Under the pieces are notes generated by a model that saw only the letters and a list, made by a program, of their open reading frames with translations, was not told where the DNA came from and ran no database searches. Below, piece by piece: positions 3,464 to 41,885 of a DNA stretch of 42,780 nucleotides (positions are counted from its first letter, which is position 1; every line of letters begins with the position of its first letter). A program made the translations under genes and the position numbers. Origin of the DNA: Thiobacillus sp. (GTDB taxonomy: Bacteria > Pseudomonadota > Gammaproteobacteria > Burkholderiales > Thiobacillaceae); the NCBI GenBank assembly GCA_019459325.1, contig JAIBFA010000061.1:1-42780 (forward strand). Reading direction: 5' to 3'.

Positions 3464-5809
3464 TCATGCACGCAAGCTGGCATTGCACTGACGAAGCGCG
3501 GCATCGACCAGTTTTTGCACTGCATCCTCCACTTCCTGATCCGTCAATGTGCGTTCAGTATCTTGCATAACTACCCGAATAGCAAGGCTTTTTTGGTTTT
3601 CTGCCATGCCTTTTCCGCGGTAATCGTCAAATACGTCGATCGAGCGCACCCAGTCGGCTGCGGGTTCGCGCAGCACGGCCAGCAGTTCGCCGACCGGGGT
3701 GTGGGCGTCCAGCACAAACGCCAGATCGCGCCTCACCAGTGGGAAGCGCGACAGCGTCGCGTGGCGCGGCAGGCTGCGCTGCGCCAGCACCTGGCTGTCG
3801 AGCTCGAACAGCACCGGCACGGCCGGCAGGTCGAATGTCTGGACCAGACGGGGATGCAGGGCACCGATCCAGCCGATGACCCGGCCATCGGCCCACACCT
3901 CGGCACACTGGCCCGGATGCAGCGCAGGATGCGCGCCACGCCGGGTATCGAGCGCATGGCCGAACAGCCGTTCCAGGTCGCCCTTCAGGTCGAAGAAATC
4001 GACGCGGCGCGCGGCAGCGCCCCATTGCTCGGGCAGCACGTCGCCATAGGCCAGCCCGCCCAGCTTCATGGGCTGCTCGGTCTGCGACCGGTACACCCGC
4101 CCCAGCTCGAAAATGCGCACCCGCGCCTGCTGGCGGTTGAGGTTGTGGCGCAGGGTTTCGAGCAGGCCGGCCCACAGCGTGGTGCGCATCGCCGACAACT
4201 GGCTGGCCAGCGGATTGGCCAACGGAAGCGGACGCGCCGTGGGGTCGAGCGCAGTCTCCCACGCCGGATCGACAAAGCTGTAGGTGATGACTTCCTGGTA
4301 ATCCAGGTCGACCAGCATGTGGCGCAGACTATCGTCGGCCAGCAGCGTTTCGTCCTGCGGCAACATGCGCGAGGGTGCCGCCGGCGGCTGCGCCGGAATA
4401 TTGTCGTAGCCGAACAGGCGCACCGCTTCTTCGATCAGGTCTTCCTCGATCGCCAGATCGAAGCGGAAGCTTGGCGGCGTGACGATCAGGCGATCGTCCT
4501 GGCGCTCGACCTGCGCGCCGAGTGCGGCGAGGCCCCGCACCACTTCATCTGCGCCGAGTTCGACGCCGGCCACGCGCGTGAGGCGTGCCAGGCGCAGGGT
4601 GATCGGCTCACGCCTGGGCAATGCGGCCGCCGCCTCGGTGATCGGACCGGCCTGGCCGCCACAGATGTCGAGCAGCAGTTGGGTGGCGCGCTCCATCGCC
4701 TGGCGGGTGGCGCCGAAATCGACGCCCCGCTCGAAGCGGTGCGACGAATCGGTGGACAAACCAAGCCGCCGGGCGCGCCCGGCGATGGCCGCCGGCGCGA
4801 AGAAAGCGGCTTCCAGCATGACGTCGACGGTGACGCGTTCCACGCTGGTCGGCAAGCCGCCCATGATCCCGGCCAGTGCCACCGGCCCATTGGCATCGGC
4901 AATCACCAGCATGTCGGGCGCGAGTTCGGCGGTCTGACCGTTCAGCAGTTCGAGTGTTTCACCGGGACGGGCCAGCCGCACCTCGATACCGCCGTTGAGG
5001 CGCGACAGGGCGAAGGCATGCATCGGCTGGCCGAGTTCGAGCAGCACGTAGTTGGTGATGTCGACCGGCGCGAGCAGCGGGCGGATGCCGCTGCGCTCCA
5101 GCCGTTCGGCCATCCAGCGCGGGGTGGTGGCCTGCGCGTTGATGCCGCGCACCACGCGGCCCAGATAAAGCGGGCAGGCGTCCGCAGCCGCCACCTGTAC
5201 CGGCACCGCGTCCTGGATGCGTTCAGCGACGCCGCCAATCTGCGGCAGCCGCACTTCGGCTCCGGTGATGGCGCCGATTTCACGCGCCAGCCCCTGCATC
5301 GACAGGCAATCCGCGCGATTGGGCGTGAGCTTGAGCGTAATGAGGGTGTCGTCCAGGTTGAGCCAGCTGCGGAAATCCTCGCCCACCGGCGCGTCGGCAT
5401 CCAGCACCATCAGGCCGTCGGCCGCGCCTTCCAGACCCAGTTCCTTGGTCGAGCACAGCATGCCGAAGGATTCGACGCCACGCACCTTGGCCACCTTGAT
5501 TTCGATCCCGGGCAGCCTGGCACCGGGACGCGCGCACGGCACCTTGAGCCCGGCCGCCGCATTGGGGGCGCCGCACACGATGGTGACCGGCGAAGCTTCG
5601 CCAACGTCGACCTGGCACACGCGCAGGCGGTCGGCGTCGGGATGCTTCTCCGCCGACAGGATCTCGGCCACCACCACGTTATTGAACGGCGGCGCGGCGG
5701 GGGTCAGGGCTTCCACCTCGAGCCCGGCCATCGTCACGGTGTGAGCCAGCTGGGCGGTATCGAGCGCGGGATTGACCAGGCTACGCAACCAGGATTCCGG
5801 AAATTGCAT
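3464..5809 (-). CDS. pheT: phenylalanine--tRNA ligase beta subunit
   Basis: PheT pairs with PheS in an alpha2-beta2 enzyme that charges tRNA-Phe. It supplies tRNA binding and editing of mischarged tyrosine. The 781-residue protein has the expected order: an N-terminal EMAP/OB-type tRNA-binding domain at about 40-150 (VVVAEI, CGAPN), then B3/B4 editing, B5 (YDNIPAQPP near its end) and a catalytic-like core. The C-terminal ferredoxin-fold anticodon-binding domain contains FPLVRRDLAFV. Length is normal and the frame is intact. The spacer to pheS is 101 bases and contains a duplicated fragment of the pheS tail. Confidence 0.97.
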   Translation of the reverse strand: MQFPESWLRSLVNPALDTAQLAHTVTMAGLEVEALTPAAPPFNNVVVAEILSAEKHPDADRLRVCQVDVGEASPVTIVCGAPNAAAGLKVPCARPGARLPGIEIKVAKVRGVESFGMLCSTKELGLEGAADGLMVLDADAPVGEDFRSWLNLDDTLITLKLTPNRADCLSMQGLAREIGAITGAEVRLPQIGGVAERIQDAVPVQVAAADACPLYLGRVVRGINAQATTPRWMAERLERSGIRPLLAPVDITNYVLLELGQPMHAFALSRLNGGIEVRLARPGETLELLNGQTAELAPDMLVIADANGPVALAGIMGGLPTSVERVTVDVMLEAAFFAPAAIAGRARRLGLSTDSSHRFERGVDFGATRQAMERATQLLLDICGGQAGPITEAAAALPRREPITLRLARLTRVAGVELGADEVVRGLAALGAQVERQDDRLIVTPPSFRFDLAIEEDLIEEAVRLFGYDNIPAQPPAAPSRMLPQDETLLADDSLRHMLVDLDYQEVITYSFVDPAWETALDPTARPLPLANPLASQLSAMRTTLWAGLLETLRHNLNRQQARVRIFELGRVYRSQTEQPMKLGGLAYGDVLPEQWGAAARRVDFFDLKGDLERLFGHALDTRRGAHPALHPGQCAEVWADGRVIGWIGALHPRLVQTFDLPAVPVLFELDSQVLAQRSLPRHATLSRFPLVRRDLAFVLDAHTPVGELLAVLREPAADWVRSIDVFDDYRGKGMAENQKSLAIRVVMQDTERTLTDQEVEDAVQKLVDAALRQCNASLRA

Positions 5810-39035: not shown

Positions 39036-39830
39036 ATGAATTTTCTTGCGACATCCATCGAATCGCTCGGCGCCAAAGTCACCGGCTGGTTTACCGTCGG
39101 TTACGGCATGTTTGCCTTTCTGGCCACGGCCGGCTTGCTGCTGCTGGACCGCACCACATGGAACCGCGCCACTTTCGACGTGGTCGTGAAACAGGTTTAC
39201 TTTACCGCCGTGCAGATTCTGCATGTATTCATGGGCTACGTACTGGTCATTTCGTGGCTCATCATCACCATTATTCTGTCCACTGCACGCGATTTCGGCC
39301 TCACTGCATTCGCCAGCGAAATGACCATTCGCGTGCTGGTGCTCGAACTGCTGCCCTTCCTGACTGCGCTCCTTATTGCCTTACGTTCCGGCAGCGCGAT
39401 CAACACCGAAGTCGCGCTGATGCAGGTCAACAATGAATTGGATGCATTGGCGCACTGCAAGGTTCCGCCGATGCAGTTCGAGTTTCTGCCGCGGCTGATC
39501 GGCGGGGTGGTTTCGGTCGTCACCCTTGCAGGCCTGGCCGGTCTGCTCGCCCTGTTGATGGGCTACCTTACCATCTACGGTGTGAGCACGGCGGGCTTCG
39601 AGCCATACACCCAGACCATAGCAAAAATCTTCGATTTCACGATCATGGCCGGGCTGATCGTCAAGTGCGCGCTGTTCGGGCTGGCAGTCACCCTGATCCC
39701 GGTCACCGCCGGACTCGAAACGCCGAAAAAACTCTTTATGGTGCCGGTCTCCGTGCTGCGCGGCATGATGCGGGTGTTCTTCGCCATTGTGACGATCGAG
39801 GTGGTGTCATTAGCGCTCAAATACATCTGA
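39036..39830 (+). CDS. MlaE-family permease of a lipid ABC transporter
   Basis: An inner-membrane protein of 264 residues with about five to six helices. The central segment LLPFLTALLIALRSGSAINTEVALM, followed by VNNELDAL, matches the signature loop of MlaE/YrbE permeases, which contacts the ATPase (family motif around PxxTxLLxAxRxGxAxxxE). These permeases move phospholipids between the inner membrane and an MCE protein. It begins the operon with an ATPase-like gene, an MCE gene and a lipoprotein gene. Its stop is shortly before the ATPase-like gene. Confidence 0.85.
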   Translation: MNFLATSIESLGAKVTGWFTVGYGMFAFLATAGLLLLDRTTWNRATFDVVVKQVYFTAVQILHVFMGYVLVISWLIITIILSTARDFGLTAFASEMTIRVLVLELLPFLTALLIALRSGSAINTEVALMQVNNELDALAHCKVPPMQFEFLPRLIGGVVSVVTLAGLAGLLALLMGYLTIYGVSTAGFEPYTQTIAKIFDFTIMAGLIVKCALFGLAVTLIPVTAGLETPKKLFMVPVSVLRGMMRVFFAIVTIEVVSLALKYI

Positions 39831-39856
39831 CCCCGTTTGCCGGCCGCGCCGCGCTG

Positions 39857-40279
39857 ATGGCTGCAATTGCCGTGCTGCCGGAAGACGTGGCGCGCGTTGC
39901 ACTCGATCTGCCGTTGCGGGCGAATCTGTCGGCGCTCGAAAACATTGCGCTGATTCCGCTCTACCAGCGCCATTACAACGCAGCCGAATCGGCCCGGCAG
40001 GCGCAGGCCATGCTCGATCAACTGGGCCACGCCGGGATTGCGCTGCTGCGCGACCCCGACATGACGCCGGCCCAGCGCTTCGTGACCAAACTGGCGCGCG
40101 CGCTCATCCTCAAGCGCCCGCGCCTGGTGATCGACCGTCCCGGCGCCATGCTTTACGATGTGCCCTATCCCGCCTTCATCGGGCAACTGGCAGCGCGGGC
40201 AGAGATGACAGGCACCTGGGAAATTTACGACTTCAGCTGGAACCAGGTTCTCTATAACCAGGCACTTGATTCGGAATGA
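39857..40279 (+). CDS. truncated, degenerate ABC ATPase-like protein of the Mla-type operon
   Basis: A 140-residue protein if it starts at the ATG at 39857. The sequence resembles the second half of an MlaF-type ATPase: SALENIALIPLYQ aligns with the region after the Q-loop, MTPAQRFVTKLARAL sits where LSGGMARRVALARA is expected, and LVIDRPGA sits at Walker B. There is no Walker A, the signature is altered (MTPAQ for LSGGM), and the catalytic Glu after Walker B Asp is Arg. An upstream ATT at 39809 with a GAGGTGG-like site could extend it by 16 codons, still without Walker A. It should not hydrolyse ATP. It is intact and overlaps the MCE gene by 4 bases, so it seems maintained. The start is uncertain. 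Confidence 0.7.
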   Translation: MAAIAVLPEDVARVALDLPLRANLSALENIALIPLYQRHYNAAESARQAQAMLDQLGHAGIALLRDPDMTPAQRFVTKLARALILKRPRLVIDRPGAMLYDVPYPAFIGQLAARAEMTGTWEIYDFSWNQVLYNQALDSE

Positions 40280-41223
40280 ACAAACTACATTTCAAGGTCG
40301 GATTGTTTGCCGTCGCCTCGCTGCTTCTGGCGGGCGCATTCGTGGTGTATCTGCTGCATGCGCGTGGCTTTTTTGAAGACACCTTCCACCTGCAACTCGC
40401 CGCAGCCAGCGCCGATGGCGTCGCAGCCGGGGTGCCGGTGGTGTTTTCCGGCATCGAAATCGGCCGCGTCACCACGCTGGGGCTCAATGAAGAAGGCGGC
40501 ATCGTCATTCGCGCCGAATTCATGGGACGCAATGCCAAGTGGCTGCGGGAGAACAGCACCTTCACCCTCGACAAACCCATCGTCGGCGGCGCCAAGATCC
40601 GCGTCGACTCGCCCGATCTCGATGCCCCCGCACTGCCCGACGACGCCACCGTGCTGCTGCTCACCGCTGACATCAGCAAGGAGCTTCCAGTACTGGTCGA
40701 ACGGGTGAAGGCGGTTCTCGACAATGTCGAATACCTCACCCGCAAGGATGGCGAAATCAATGCCACCCTGGCCAACGTCAAGACGGTGACCGGGCGCATG
40801 ACCGGCGAATACGGCATGCTGGAAAGCATCCTCGGAAGCCCGGAAAAGGCCCGCGCGGTAACCGATTCTCTCGACAAGACCCGTGCCCTCATCGGCAAGC
40901 TCGACGGCCTGGCGGTGAAGGTGGACGGCATGGCCGGCAAAACCGATCAGTGGCTGTTCGCGCCGGACGGCGTGGCCGAACAGACGCGCGAATCGCTGGC
41001 CCAGATACGATTGATGCTGAACGACGCGCAATCCAGCCTGAAGAAAGCCGATGCCCTGATGACCAATGCCGTGGAGATTTCCGCCGACGTCAAGGAAGGC
41101 ACGCAGGACATCGCCGCGCTGCGCGCCGAAATCGACGATGCAGTGAGCAAGGCCAACGCGCTGGTCAACAAGATCAACAAGATGTGGCCGTTTGCGCGCG
41201 ATCCCGAGGTGAAGCTGCCATGA
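40276..41223 (+). CDS. MlaD-like MCE-domain protein
   Basis: A 315-residue protein anchored by one N-terminal helix (about 9-27). The periplasmic MCE domain at about 37-115 contains GVAAGVPVVFSGIEIGRVTTL and VGGAKIRV. A long helical tail (about 135-310) could form a bundle or tube across the periplasm. MCE proteins form hexameric rings through which lipids pass, and the tail is longer than that of E. coli MlaD. It overlaps the preceding ATPase-like gene by ATGA and the next lipoprotein gene by ATGA, so the set is translationally coupled. Confidence 0.92.
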   Translation: MNKLHFKVGLFAVASLLLAGAFVVYLLHARGFFEDTFHLQLAAASADGVAAGVPVVFSGIEIGRVTTLGLNEEGGIVIRAEFMGRNAKWLRENSTFTLDKPIVGGAKIRVDSPDLDAPALPDDATVLLLTADISKELPVLVERVKAVLDNVEYLTRKDGEINATLANVKTVTGRMTGEYGMLESILGSPEKARAVTDSLDKTRALIGKLDGLAVKVDGMAGKTDQWLFAPDGVAEQTRESLAQIRLMLNDAQSSLKKADALMTNAVEISADVKEGTQDIAALRAEIDDAVSKANALVNKINKMWPFARDPEVKLP

Positions 41224-41885
41224 AGATCCTGCTCATGCTCGCCGGCCTGGTCATGCTTACCGCCTGCCGCGGCGGCCCGCCGCCACCCGACTGGAAAACC
41301 GATGCGGCCGACCTGATCGAGCGTTATCAGAAACATGCCCTGCTGGGCGAAAACATCCTCGCCGAGCGCTATTTCCAGAAGGCCGTCGGCGCCACCGGCG
41401 GCGCCGGCCGCGTCGCCGAGACCGCGCGCCTGTGGCTGGTGCGCTGCGCCACCCGCCGCGCCATGCTGATCGACGACGCCTGTGCTGAATATGCCGAACT
41501 CGCCGGCAGCGCGCCGAACGCGGCGGACCATGCCTACTACCGTTTCCTCACCCTGCGCTGGGACGCCCTCGACGTCGCCCTGTTGCCCAGCCAGCACCAC
41601 GATCTGGTGCGCGCGCCGGCTGTAAAGCGGCCTGAAGCGCTGAGCCGGATCGCCGATCCGCTGGCGCGCCTGCTCGACGCCAGCCTGCTGGTGATGCGCC
41701 AGGAAGCCGATGCCGCCACGCTGACGCTGGCTGCGGAAACCGCCTCGGAGCGAGGCTGGCGGCAGCCCCTGCTGACCTACCTGAAACTGCAGCAACAACA
41801 GGCAGCCACCCGGGGCGATCCCACTGAACTGGACCGGCTCGACCGGCGAATTCGGCTGATCGAACAGAGCTTCAGCGGCTCATGA
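41220..41885 (+). CDS. lipoprotein of the Mla-like operon
   Basis: A 221-residue lipoprotein with lipobox LTAC (Cys16) after a short hydrophobic signal. The mature part is helical and looks repeat-like (ERYFQKAVGATGG, AEYAELAGSAPNAADHAYYRFLTLR), similar in style to TPR-type scaffold proteins. It has no recognised enzyme motif. In related operons the last gene is often a periplasmic accessory lipoprotein; here the sequence does not look like the usual ABC auxiliary lipoprotein (PqiC-type), so its role is inferred from position only. ATGA overlap with the MCE gene. Confidence 0.75.
   Translation: MKILLMLAGLVMLTACRGGPPPPDWKTDAADLIERYQKHALLGENILAERYFQKAVGATGGAGRVAETARLWLVRCATRRAMLIDDACAEYAELAGSAPNAADHAYYRFLTLRWDALDVALLPSQHHDLVRAPAVKRPEALSRIADPLARLLDASLLVMRQEADAATLTLAAETASERGWRQPLLTYLKLQQQQAATRGDPTELDRLDRRIRLIEQSFSGS

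Follow-up and report, generated by a model that had tools for sequence, protein, structure and literature searches.

The subject of this report is a four-gene operon of Thiobacillus sp. whose second gene encodes a miniature ATP-binding cassette (ABC) ATPase domain stripped of its catalytic motifs, termed here the pseudo-NBD (NBD, nucleotide-binding domain). The operon lies on the forward strand at positions 39036-41885 of a DNA stretch of 42,780 nucleotides (the window), which is the entire contig G000:C28 of a draft genome coded G000 (87.8% complete). Its four coupled genes encode, in order, a permease, the pseudo-NBD, an MCE protein and a lipoprotein, matching the gene content and short overlaps described in an earlier, sequence-only reading of this DNA. 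The permease (39036..39830, + strand, 264 residues) is of the MlaE type, with PF02405 as its sole Pfam match (134.7 bits; cut-off 22.5), and E. coli MlaE was matched in the PDB at E 7.4e-9. The pseudo-NBD gene (39809..40279, +) encodes 156 residues from an inferred ATT start and has no Walker A. The MCE protein (40276..41223, +, 315 residues) is MlaD-like, matched PF02470 at 29.4 bits (cut-off 25.1), and is built of a transmembrane helix, one MCE domain and a long helical C-terminal part. Its AlphaFold2 model, which has a mean pLDDT of 59 with low confidence past residue 130 and serves for secondary structure only, predicts a helix at residues 2-29 and strands between residues 36 and 130; the underlying alignment had 27 rows, all from the window and the genome contigs, L074 having been omitted for its short frame and others for brevity. 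In L074, a named relative, the MCE frame (4139-4654) as sequenced ends after 172 codons, versus the usual length of about 310. The final gene (41220..41885, +) encodes a lipoprotein of 221 residues with a lipobox, LTAC, recognized by eye. No Pfam or NCBIfam family scored above cut-off for it, and homologues occupy the same operon position in relatives both with and without the pseudo-NBD. Scanning of these four products against Pfam and NCBIfam revealed no MlaC, STAS or intact MlaF among them.

The pseudo-NBD itself was found to match no Pfam family at E <= 1. The comparison with ABC ATPase profiles that the sequence-only reading had proposed gave weak NCBIfam matches to full ABC ATPases, far below the cut-offs (best GlnQ, 1.7e-5; LolD, 1.4e-4), and the pseudo-NBD of a relative (L036) reached 16.5 bits against PF00005, for which the cut-off is 25. 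Alignment by hhalign of the pseudo-NBD profile with the MlaF-like ATPase of the same genome (probability 51%, E 0.00015) placed MTPAQ (40061..40075, +) opposite LSGGM at the ABC signature place, and DRP opposite DEP, with the Walker B Asp followed by Arg (40133..40138, +) at the place of the catalytic Glu. Both substitutions had been proposed from the letters alone, together with the lack of Walker A, and all three were borne out. Pattern searches were made in 79 distinct copies, a set of open frames of at least 120 residues that broken copies could not enter. Walker A, GxxGxGK(S/T), was present in none of them, even when 60 in-frame residues upstream were included, and none contained the SGG of the signature. 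The residue following the Walker B acid was Arg in 74 copies, His in two, and Ala, Gln and Thr in one each, but never Glu. In comparison with full ATPases, the alignment indicates that most of the part before the Q-loop is missing, including Walker A, as is the C-terminal part. With these motifs lost, the pseudo-NBD probably does not use ATP.

The predicted structure is that of a reduced NBD. AlphaFold2, supplied with 46 sequences of the Thiobacillus group taken from the window and the genome contigs, gave a best of five models with pLDDT 83.1 and pTM 0.79, in which the elements follow in the order strand, helix, strand, two helices, the helix at the signature place, the strand at the Walker B place, two helices, strand and helix. 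The top Foldseek matches of this model in the PDB were ABC NBDs, including E. coli MlaF, at E 1.5e-8 to about 1e-6, with TM scores of up to 0.76 when normalized by query length. The Foldseek viral library returned only general ABC proteins as top matches. On this model, the pseudo-NBD is an ABC NBD fold in reduced, motif-less form.

The start of the gene deserves separate consideration. The earlier figure of 140 residues rested on an ATG at 39857; this Met is not conserved, and the ATG was rejected in favor of an ATT at 39809, which gives 156 residues. In a DNA-level comparison of 47 named loci, which encode 46 distinct proteins, the ATT was kept in all 46. A Shine-Dalgarno-like GAGGTG, identified by eye, stands 5 nt ahead of it (39798..39803, +). 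The ATT spans a Ser-Leu codon pair of the overlapping permease gene, and the choice of that Leu codon is unusual: among 75 distinct permease genes that have a pseudo-NBD gene after them, 57 use TTA there and 7 use TTG, while TTA occurs at 48 of 3030 other Leu codons of the same 75 genes and at that Leu in only 1 of 34 permeases without a pseudo-NBD. Where the pseudo-NBD and permease genes lie apart (L061 and L067), ATT AGC still precedes the pseudo-NBD, even without a permease frame running through it. In L067 a GGAG again stands ahead of the ATT, and L061 offers an alternative start in an in-frame GTG three codons upstream. The third genome with a detached gene (L069) has ATG in place of ATT, and the three stand-alone permeases have two CTG and one TTA at that Leu (L140, L195, L142). 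An ATG near the permease stop was seen in the relatives of family f24 and in several of family f30. Two further candidates were discarded: a CTG in the CTGA overlap, which is missing in relatives with TAG or TAA permease stops that keep the ATT, and a GTG that is out of frame. Among start codons AUU is rare; infC and pcnB are known examples. The comparative evidence is strong, and the pseudo-NBD gene probably starts at the conserved ATT.

The truncated gene is widespread. Among 36 genomes of the genus, many of them incomplete assemblies, 32 gave a strong full-length match to the pseudo-NBD, one (G003) was cut by a contig end, two gave none and one gave a weak match. In the order, a profile of 17 rows picked it up at E <= 1.4e-35 in 32 of the 399 genomes, distributed over six families (f1, f11, f24, f30, f35 and f47); the remaining 21 of the 53 matches reported for the order had E-values of 1.4e-10 to 8.6e-9 and longer frames, and are taken as ordinary ABC ATPases. 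A class-wide sample of 369 genomes added one genome that reached the threshold of 1e-12, G666, which lies outside the order (operon L192). Named loci with the pseudo-NBD are mostly from Thiobacillus, and the best of them, L073, encodes an identical protein. Some residues of the pseudo-NBD are invariant across families. Median pairwise dN/dS values among Thiobacillus-group sequences were 0.188 (pseudo-NBD, n = 48), 0.110 (permease, n = 48) and 0.171 (MCE protein, n = 47), as calculated by the Nei-Gojobori method with the permease overlap excluded and only pairs of dS 0.1-1.2 used. A chance open reading frame is ruled out by this dN/dS and by the fold. Its occurrence in 32 of the 36 genus genomes and, across six families, in 32 of the 399 from the order indicates that the pseudo-NBD is old and not a recent deletion, a candidate ruled out by the same truncation in six families. 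No full-length ATPase with Walker A was found at this locus in the close relatives fetched, the finding that would have spoken for such a deletion. The suggestion that the gene is retained under constraint and is not decaying thus held. Whether truncation and motif loss are conserved with the operon had been posed as a question: all 79 copies lack the motifs, and 18 of 18 fully annotated operons, counting the second copy of this genome and that of G666, comprise permease, pseudo-NBD and MCE genes.

That second copy is of the whole operon and lies in the same assembly (L035, G000:C55:12000-24000), with identities to the window operon of 78% for the pseudo-NBD, 94% for the permease, 88% for the MCE protein and 78% for the lipoprotein. 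Two strong copies of the pseudo-NBD were seen in none of the other genus genomes among the 36 searched. It could stem from a recent transfer or be a paralogue, or the contig may be foreign to the bin.

A search that started from the permease found close relatives in 67 of the 399 genomes of the order: 32 with the pseudo-NBD, 34 with no NBD gene between permease and MCE genes, and one (G097) with a different pseudo-ATPase. In the 34 NBD-free genomes, 18 to 256 nt separate the permease stop from the MCE match, with no pseudo-NBD match in between, and the lipoprotein gene comes next. The fetched NBD-free stretches, several of which reach contig ends (L131, L135, L174 and L175), yielded no ABC ATPase with Walker A and signature, except that L175 has one upstream of its permease. 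No named NBD-free member was matched in a plasmid search. Outside the order, in a class sample of 340 genomes, only G666 and G707 have permeases this close (next best, 1.5e-27); the G707 operon (L222) is in the NBD-free form and possibly represents a transfer.

The relationships among these permeases were examined in a maximum-likelihood tree of 87 sequences, from which the duplicate L172 was omitted. The group was set apart from 29 ATPase-linked MlaE rows with support of 100/99; the ATPase linkage of these rows was read directly for L034 only, judged for many from the position of a neighboring MlaF-like gene, and assumed from the clade for the rest. The 34 rows without an NBD form one clade (85/94) lying among the pseudo-NBD rows, and the G666 row, from another order and with a pseudo-NBD, branches first. 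This nesting would imply a single loss of an already truncated NBD gene in the ancestry of the NBD-free operons. MlaE permeases numbered three in 13 and two in 2 (G064 and G276) of 15 genomes searched, and the tree contains three sets: canonical-type, longer L034-like, and that of the pseudo-NBD operon. The operon is, by homology, a third MCE system of this lineage, with lipid as the presumed cargo. The existence of a large clade without the pseudo-NBD, combined with the vanished NBD motifs, might suggest that the protein is a functionless remnant on its way out. We regard this as very improbable, considering that six families and one other order share the truncation, that dN/dS is 0.19, and that some residues are invariant across families.

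The exceptional genome G097 encodes an ATPase-like protein of 208 residues (L191, 3978-4604) beside a more distant permease in an MCE operon. This protein lacks both Walker A and the signature; its Walker B place reads Asp-Gly, and a His stands at the H-loop place. A relative with 84% identity is present in G802 (L225), and no close match was found in the other 20 of 22 family genomes searched. It is a second, separate pseudo-ATPase; as an intermediate of the same lineage it was rejected, because its permease falls, on a long branch, among the ATPase-linked rows.

Does the permease retain a face on which an NBD could dock? Conservation was compared after thinning at 70% identity to 12 permeases with a pseudo-NBD, 22 without and 13 ATPase-linked, with L191, L192, L172 and L173 left out, and cytoplasm-facing segments were placed by the MlaE topology (excerpt of PMC7790496). 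Such segments were better conserved with than without the pseudo-NBD at residues 52-59 (0.82 versus 0.32) and 236-243 (0.67 versus 0.24), and a similar difference was observed at 116-131 (0.79 and 0.75 versus 0.37 and 0.33); residues 84-107 and 172-203 are among the segments better conserved without it. The coupling helix, 127-149, scored 0.51 with the pseudo-NBD, 0.32 without and 0.46 in ATPase-linked MlaE, while the rest of the permease scored 0.49 with versus 0.45 without; the coupling-helix gap was reached in 0 of 300 label shuffles, which ignore relatedness. Residues E134 and A137, aligned to Q128 and S131 among the MlaF-contacting residues of E. coli MlaE (excerpt of PMC7784689), are invariant with the pseudo-NBD and score 0.16 and 0.24 without it. 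On the simplest reading of these alignments, the pseudo-NBD would dock on the same face as MlaF, and this face would decay once left unoccupied.

A different role, in which the pseudo-NBD acts other than as a docked NBD, be it as a stability factor or by linking translation of the permease and the MCE protein, could be read into the tight gene overlaps and the conserved unusual start. Moreover, in three genomes of genus g27 (G355, G236 and G164) the pseudo-NBD gene is found beside those for the MCE protein and the lipoprotein while the permease is encoded elsewhere, which indicates that linkage to the permease gene is not essential; in the loci concerned (L140, L141, L142, L194 and L195) the permease lies about 6 kb off or on another contig. 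Such a regulator seems rather unlikely in view of the retained NBD fold and the tie between the presence of the pseudo-NBD and the conservation of the cytoplasmic face of the permease.

The explanation that we favor, with somewhat better than even confidence, is that an MlaE-type MCE conduit passed from an ATP-driven to a pseudo-NBD-capped and then to an NBD-free state, with the pseudo-NBD bound to the permease in a structural or gating role. An ancestral ABC ATPase would have shrunk to a pseudo-NBD of 150-160 residues, retaining a short initial beta-alpha-beta unit, the helical subdomain and the Walker B-equivalent strand while losing the motifs for ATP binding and hydrolysis. The product would most likely take the place of MlaF, seated against the permease's cytoplasmic face and coupling helix as a structural cap or gate, and one large clade would later have lost the NBD gene from the operon. 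Lipids may move through the permease and the MCE tube down affinity or concentration gradients, or by means of an unknown partner; such ATPase-free working would be analogous to that of PqiAB and LetAB. The role of ATP in setting the direction of Mla lipid transport is disputed (excerpt of PMC10212509).

Several points weigh against this explanation. The AlphaFold2 model was built on close homologues only, and three of the five models had pLDDT of 54-65. All pseudo-NBD rows as a single clade were just marginally disfavored (p-AU 0.0502), so that the nesting is not firmly proven. Outside the coupling helix, 28 of 158 windows of the permease differ as much, mostly near residues 227-250; the coupling helix as the sole decayed segment was accordingly rejected, and the disregard of relatedness in the label shuffles is a further weakness. 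The other three of the five MlaF-contact positions differ by -0.16, -0.05 and +0.21, and the low conservation without an NBD could partly be alignment noise. Finally, MlaF-type ATPases are encoded in 26 of 26 genomes searched and could act in trans.

This last point underlies the proposal of a borrowed motor, in which a full-length MlaF-type ATPase drives the permease in trans, much as MceG serves several mycobacterial Mce systems, and the pseudo-NBD regulates this ATPase or pairs asymmetrically with it. Besides the presence of such ATPases in all 26 genomes and the coupling helix kept in the pseudo-NBD clade, it can draw on a further MlaF-like gene, apparently unlinked to mlaE, in 9 of 17 pseudo-NBD genomes, as judged by position in four (G011, G024, G078 and G123) and by sequence identity only in five (G005, G016, G032, G306 and G326). 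However, none was seen in six pseudo-NBD genomes (G058, G082, G192, G195, G261 and G321), two were undecided, and 3 of 9 genomes without a pseudo-NBD have one (G185 and G276 by position, G138 by sequence identity only), so the unlinked MlaF does not track the pseudo-NBD system. In G000 and G266 the single further MlaF-like copy contains an in-frame stop; that of the window genome, its nearest match to the unlinked gene (G000:C52:39638-40426, - strand), is 85% identical and has one apparent in-frame TAG. The three unlinked ATPases read, at L244 (4104-4820, +), L245 (4772-5581, -) and L246 (4634-5446, -) and including the G011 and G024 copies, have intact Walker A, signature and Glu, with Tyr for the H-loop His; this His is present in the mlaE-linked copy of G011 (L248). 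G011 and G024 belong to the same genus as the window genome, and their unlinked genes adjoin what we take to be the gene for the E2 component of 2-oxoglutarate dehydrogenase. Two further points count against a borrowed motor: the NBD-free operons have lost coupling-helix conservation, which would leave a trans ATPase little to dock on, and a pair with the pseudo-NBD would be short of one Walker A and one signature. Overall, a borrowed motor is a less probable account, albeit the strongest competitor of the capped conduit. The sequence-only reading had left a borrowed ATPase, a heterodimer and passive working side by side; ATPase-independent working is now favored because of the operons without an NBD gene and the decay of the NBD-facing permease segments there, with a borrowed MlaF as the less probable alternative.

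How does this operon compare with known systems? It shares an MlaE-type permease and an MCE protein with the Mla system of E. coli (MlaFEDCB), and its pseudo-NBD is homologous to NBDs such as MlaF. Unlike in Mla, the four genes include no active MlaF, MlaB or MlaC, the NBD is a pseudo-NBD or its gene is lacking altogether, and the MCE protein has a long helical part and comes with a lipoprotein of its own. Mycobacterial Mce systems share an ATPase, MceG. That shared ATPase is active, and we know of no pseudo-NBD in the mycobacterial Mce/YrbE systems. The degenerate NBDs of heterodimeric ABC exporters are full length and paired with a catalytic NBD; both they and the pseudo-NBD are motif-poor NBDs kept beside a permease, but in the latter the Walker A part is lost.

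The gene order resembles that of the Mpc system of Brucella, described as a STAS-fused permease, a full ATPase, a needle MCE protein and a PqiC-like lipoprotein (excerpt of PMC12436622). As far as that excerpt allows comparison, both place a permease, an ATPase or its remnant, a long MCE protein and a lipoprotein in one operon, whereas here the permease is 264 residues with PF02405 only, no working ATPase is encoded, and the lipoprotein is unrelated and has no significant Pfam match. The window genome contains an Mpc-like operon as well (L034, G000:C7:19000-31000), with a full MlaF-like ATPase, an MCE protein, a PF03886 lipoprotein and an MlaE-type permease of 364 residues whose STAS match is below cut-off; after these comes a gene for another small protein, the start of which is signal-like. 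Pqi and Let are MCE systems with an inner-membrane protein without an ATPase domain (excerpt of PMC12436622). On that description, PqiABC and LetAB likewise have no ATPase, but they consist of PqiA/LetA-type membrane proteins and multi-MCE proteins in place of an MlaE-type permease and a single PF02470 stretch. The present system thus joins an Mpc-like gene order and a Pqi/Let-like absence of an ATPase with an MlaE-type permease. Operons of type mce often encode permeases and only occasionally ATPases (excerpt of PMC5561183). In a survey covering 1083 genomes, MlaDE as well as MlaDEF clusters were used, with uncertain annotation of MlaF cited; operons without F may therefore have been seen before, among its MlaDE clusters, and the excerpted text describes no pseudo-NBD (PMC10665443). 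The limited, partly excerpted literature set searched showed no account of an MlaE-type system that has a pseudo-NBD.

What would these operons mean for MCE transport? In this family the motor has apparently been removed while the permease, the MCE protein and the lipoprotein were kept, and the steps can be compared within one bacterial order. The wider claim, that both later stages survive in present genomes, with an ABC permease working as an ATP-independent lipid conduit and an AUU-started mini-NBD as its non-catalytic cap or gate, is held with slightly less than even confidence. If true, an ABC permease fold can act as a lipid conduit independently of ATP, an unusually small NBD is still under selection, and these operons would provide tractable systems in which the role of the motor can be separated from that of the permease and the MCE tube.

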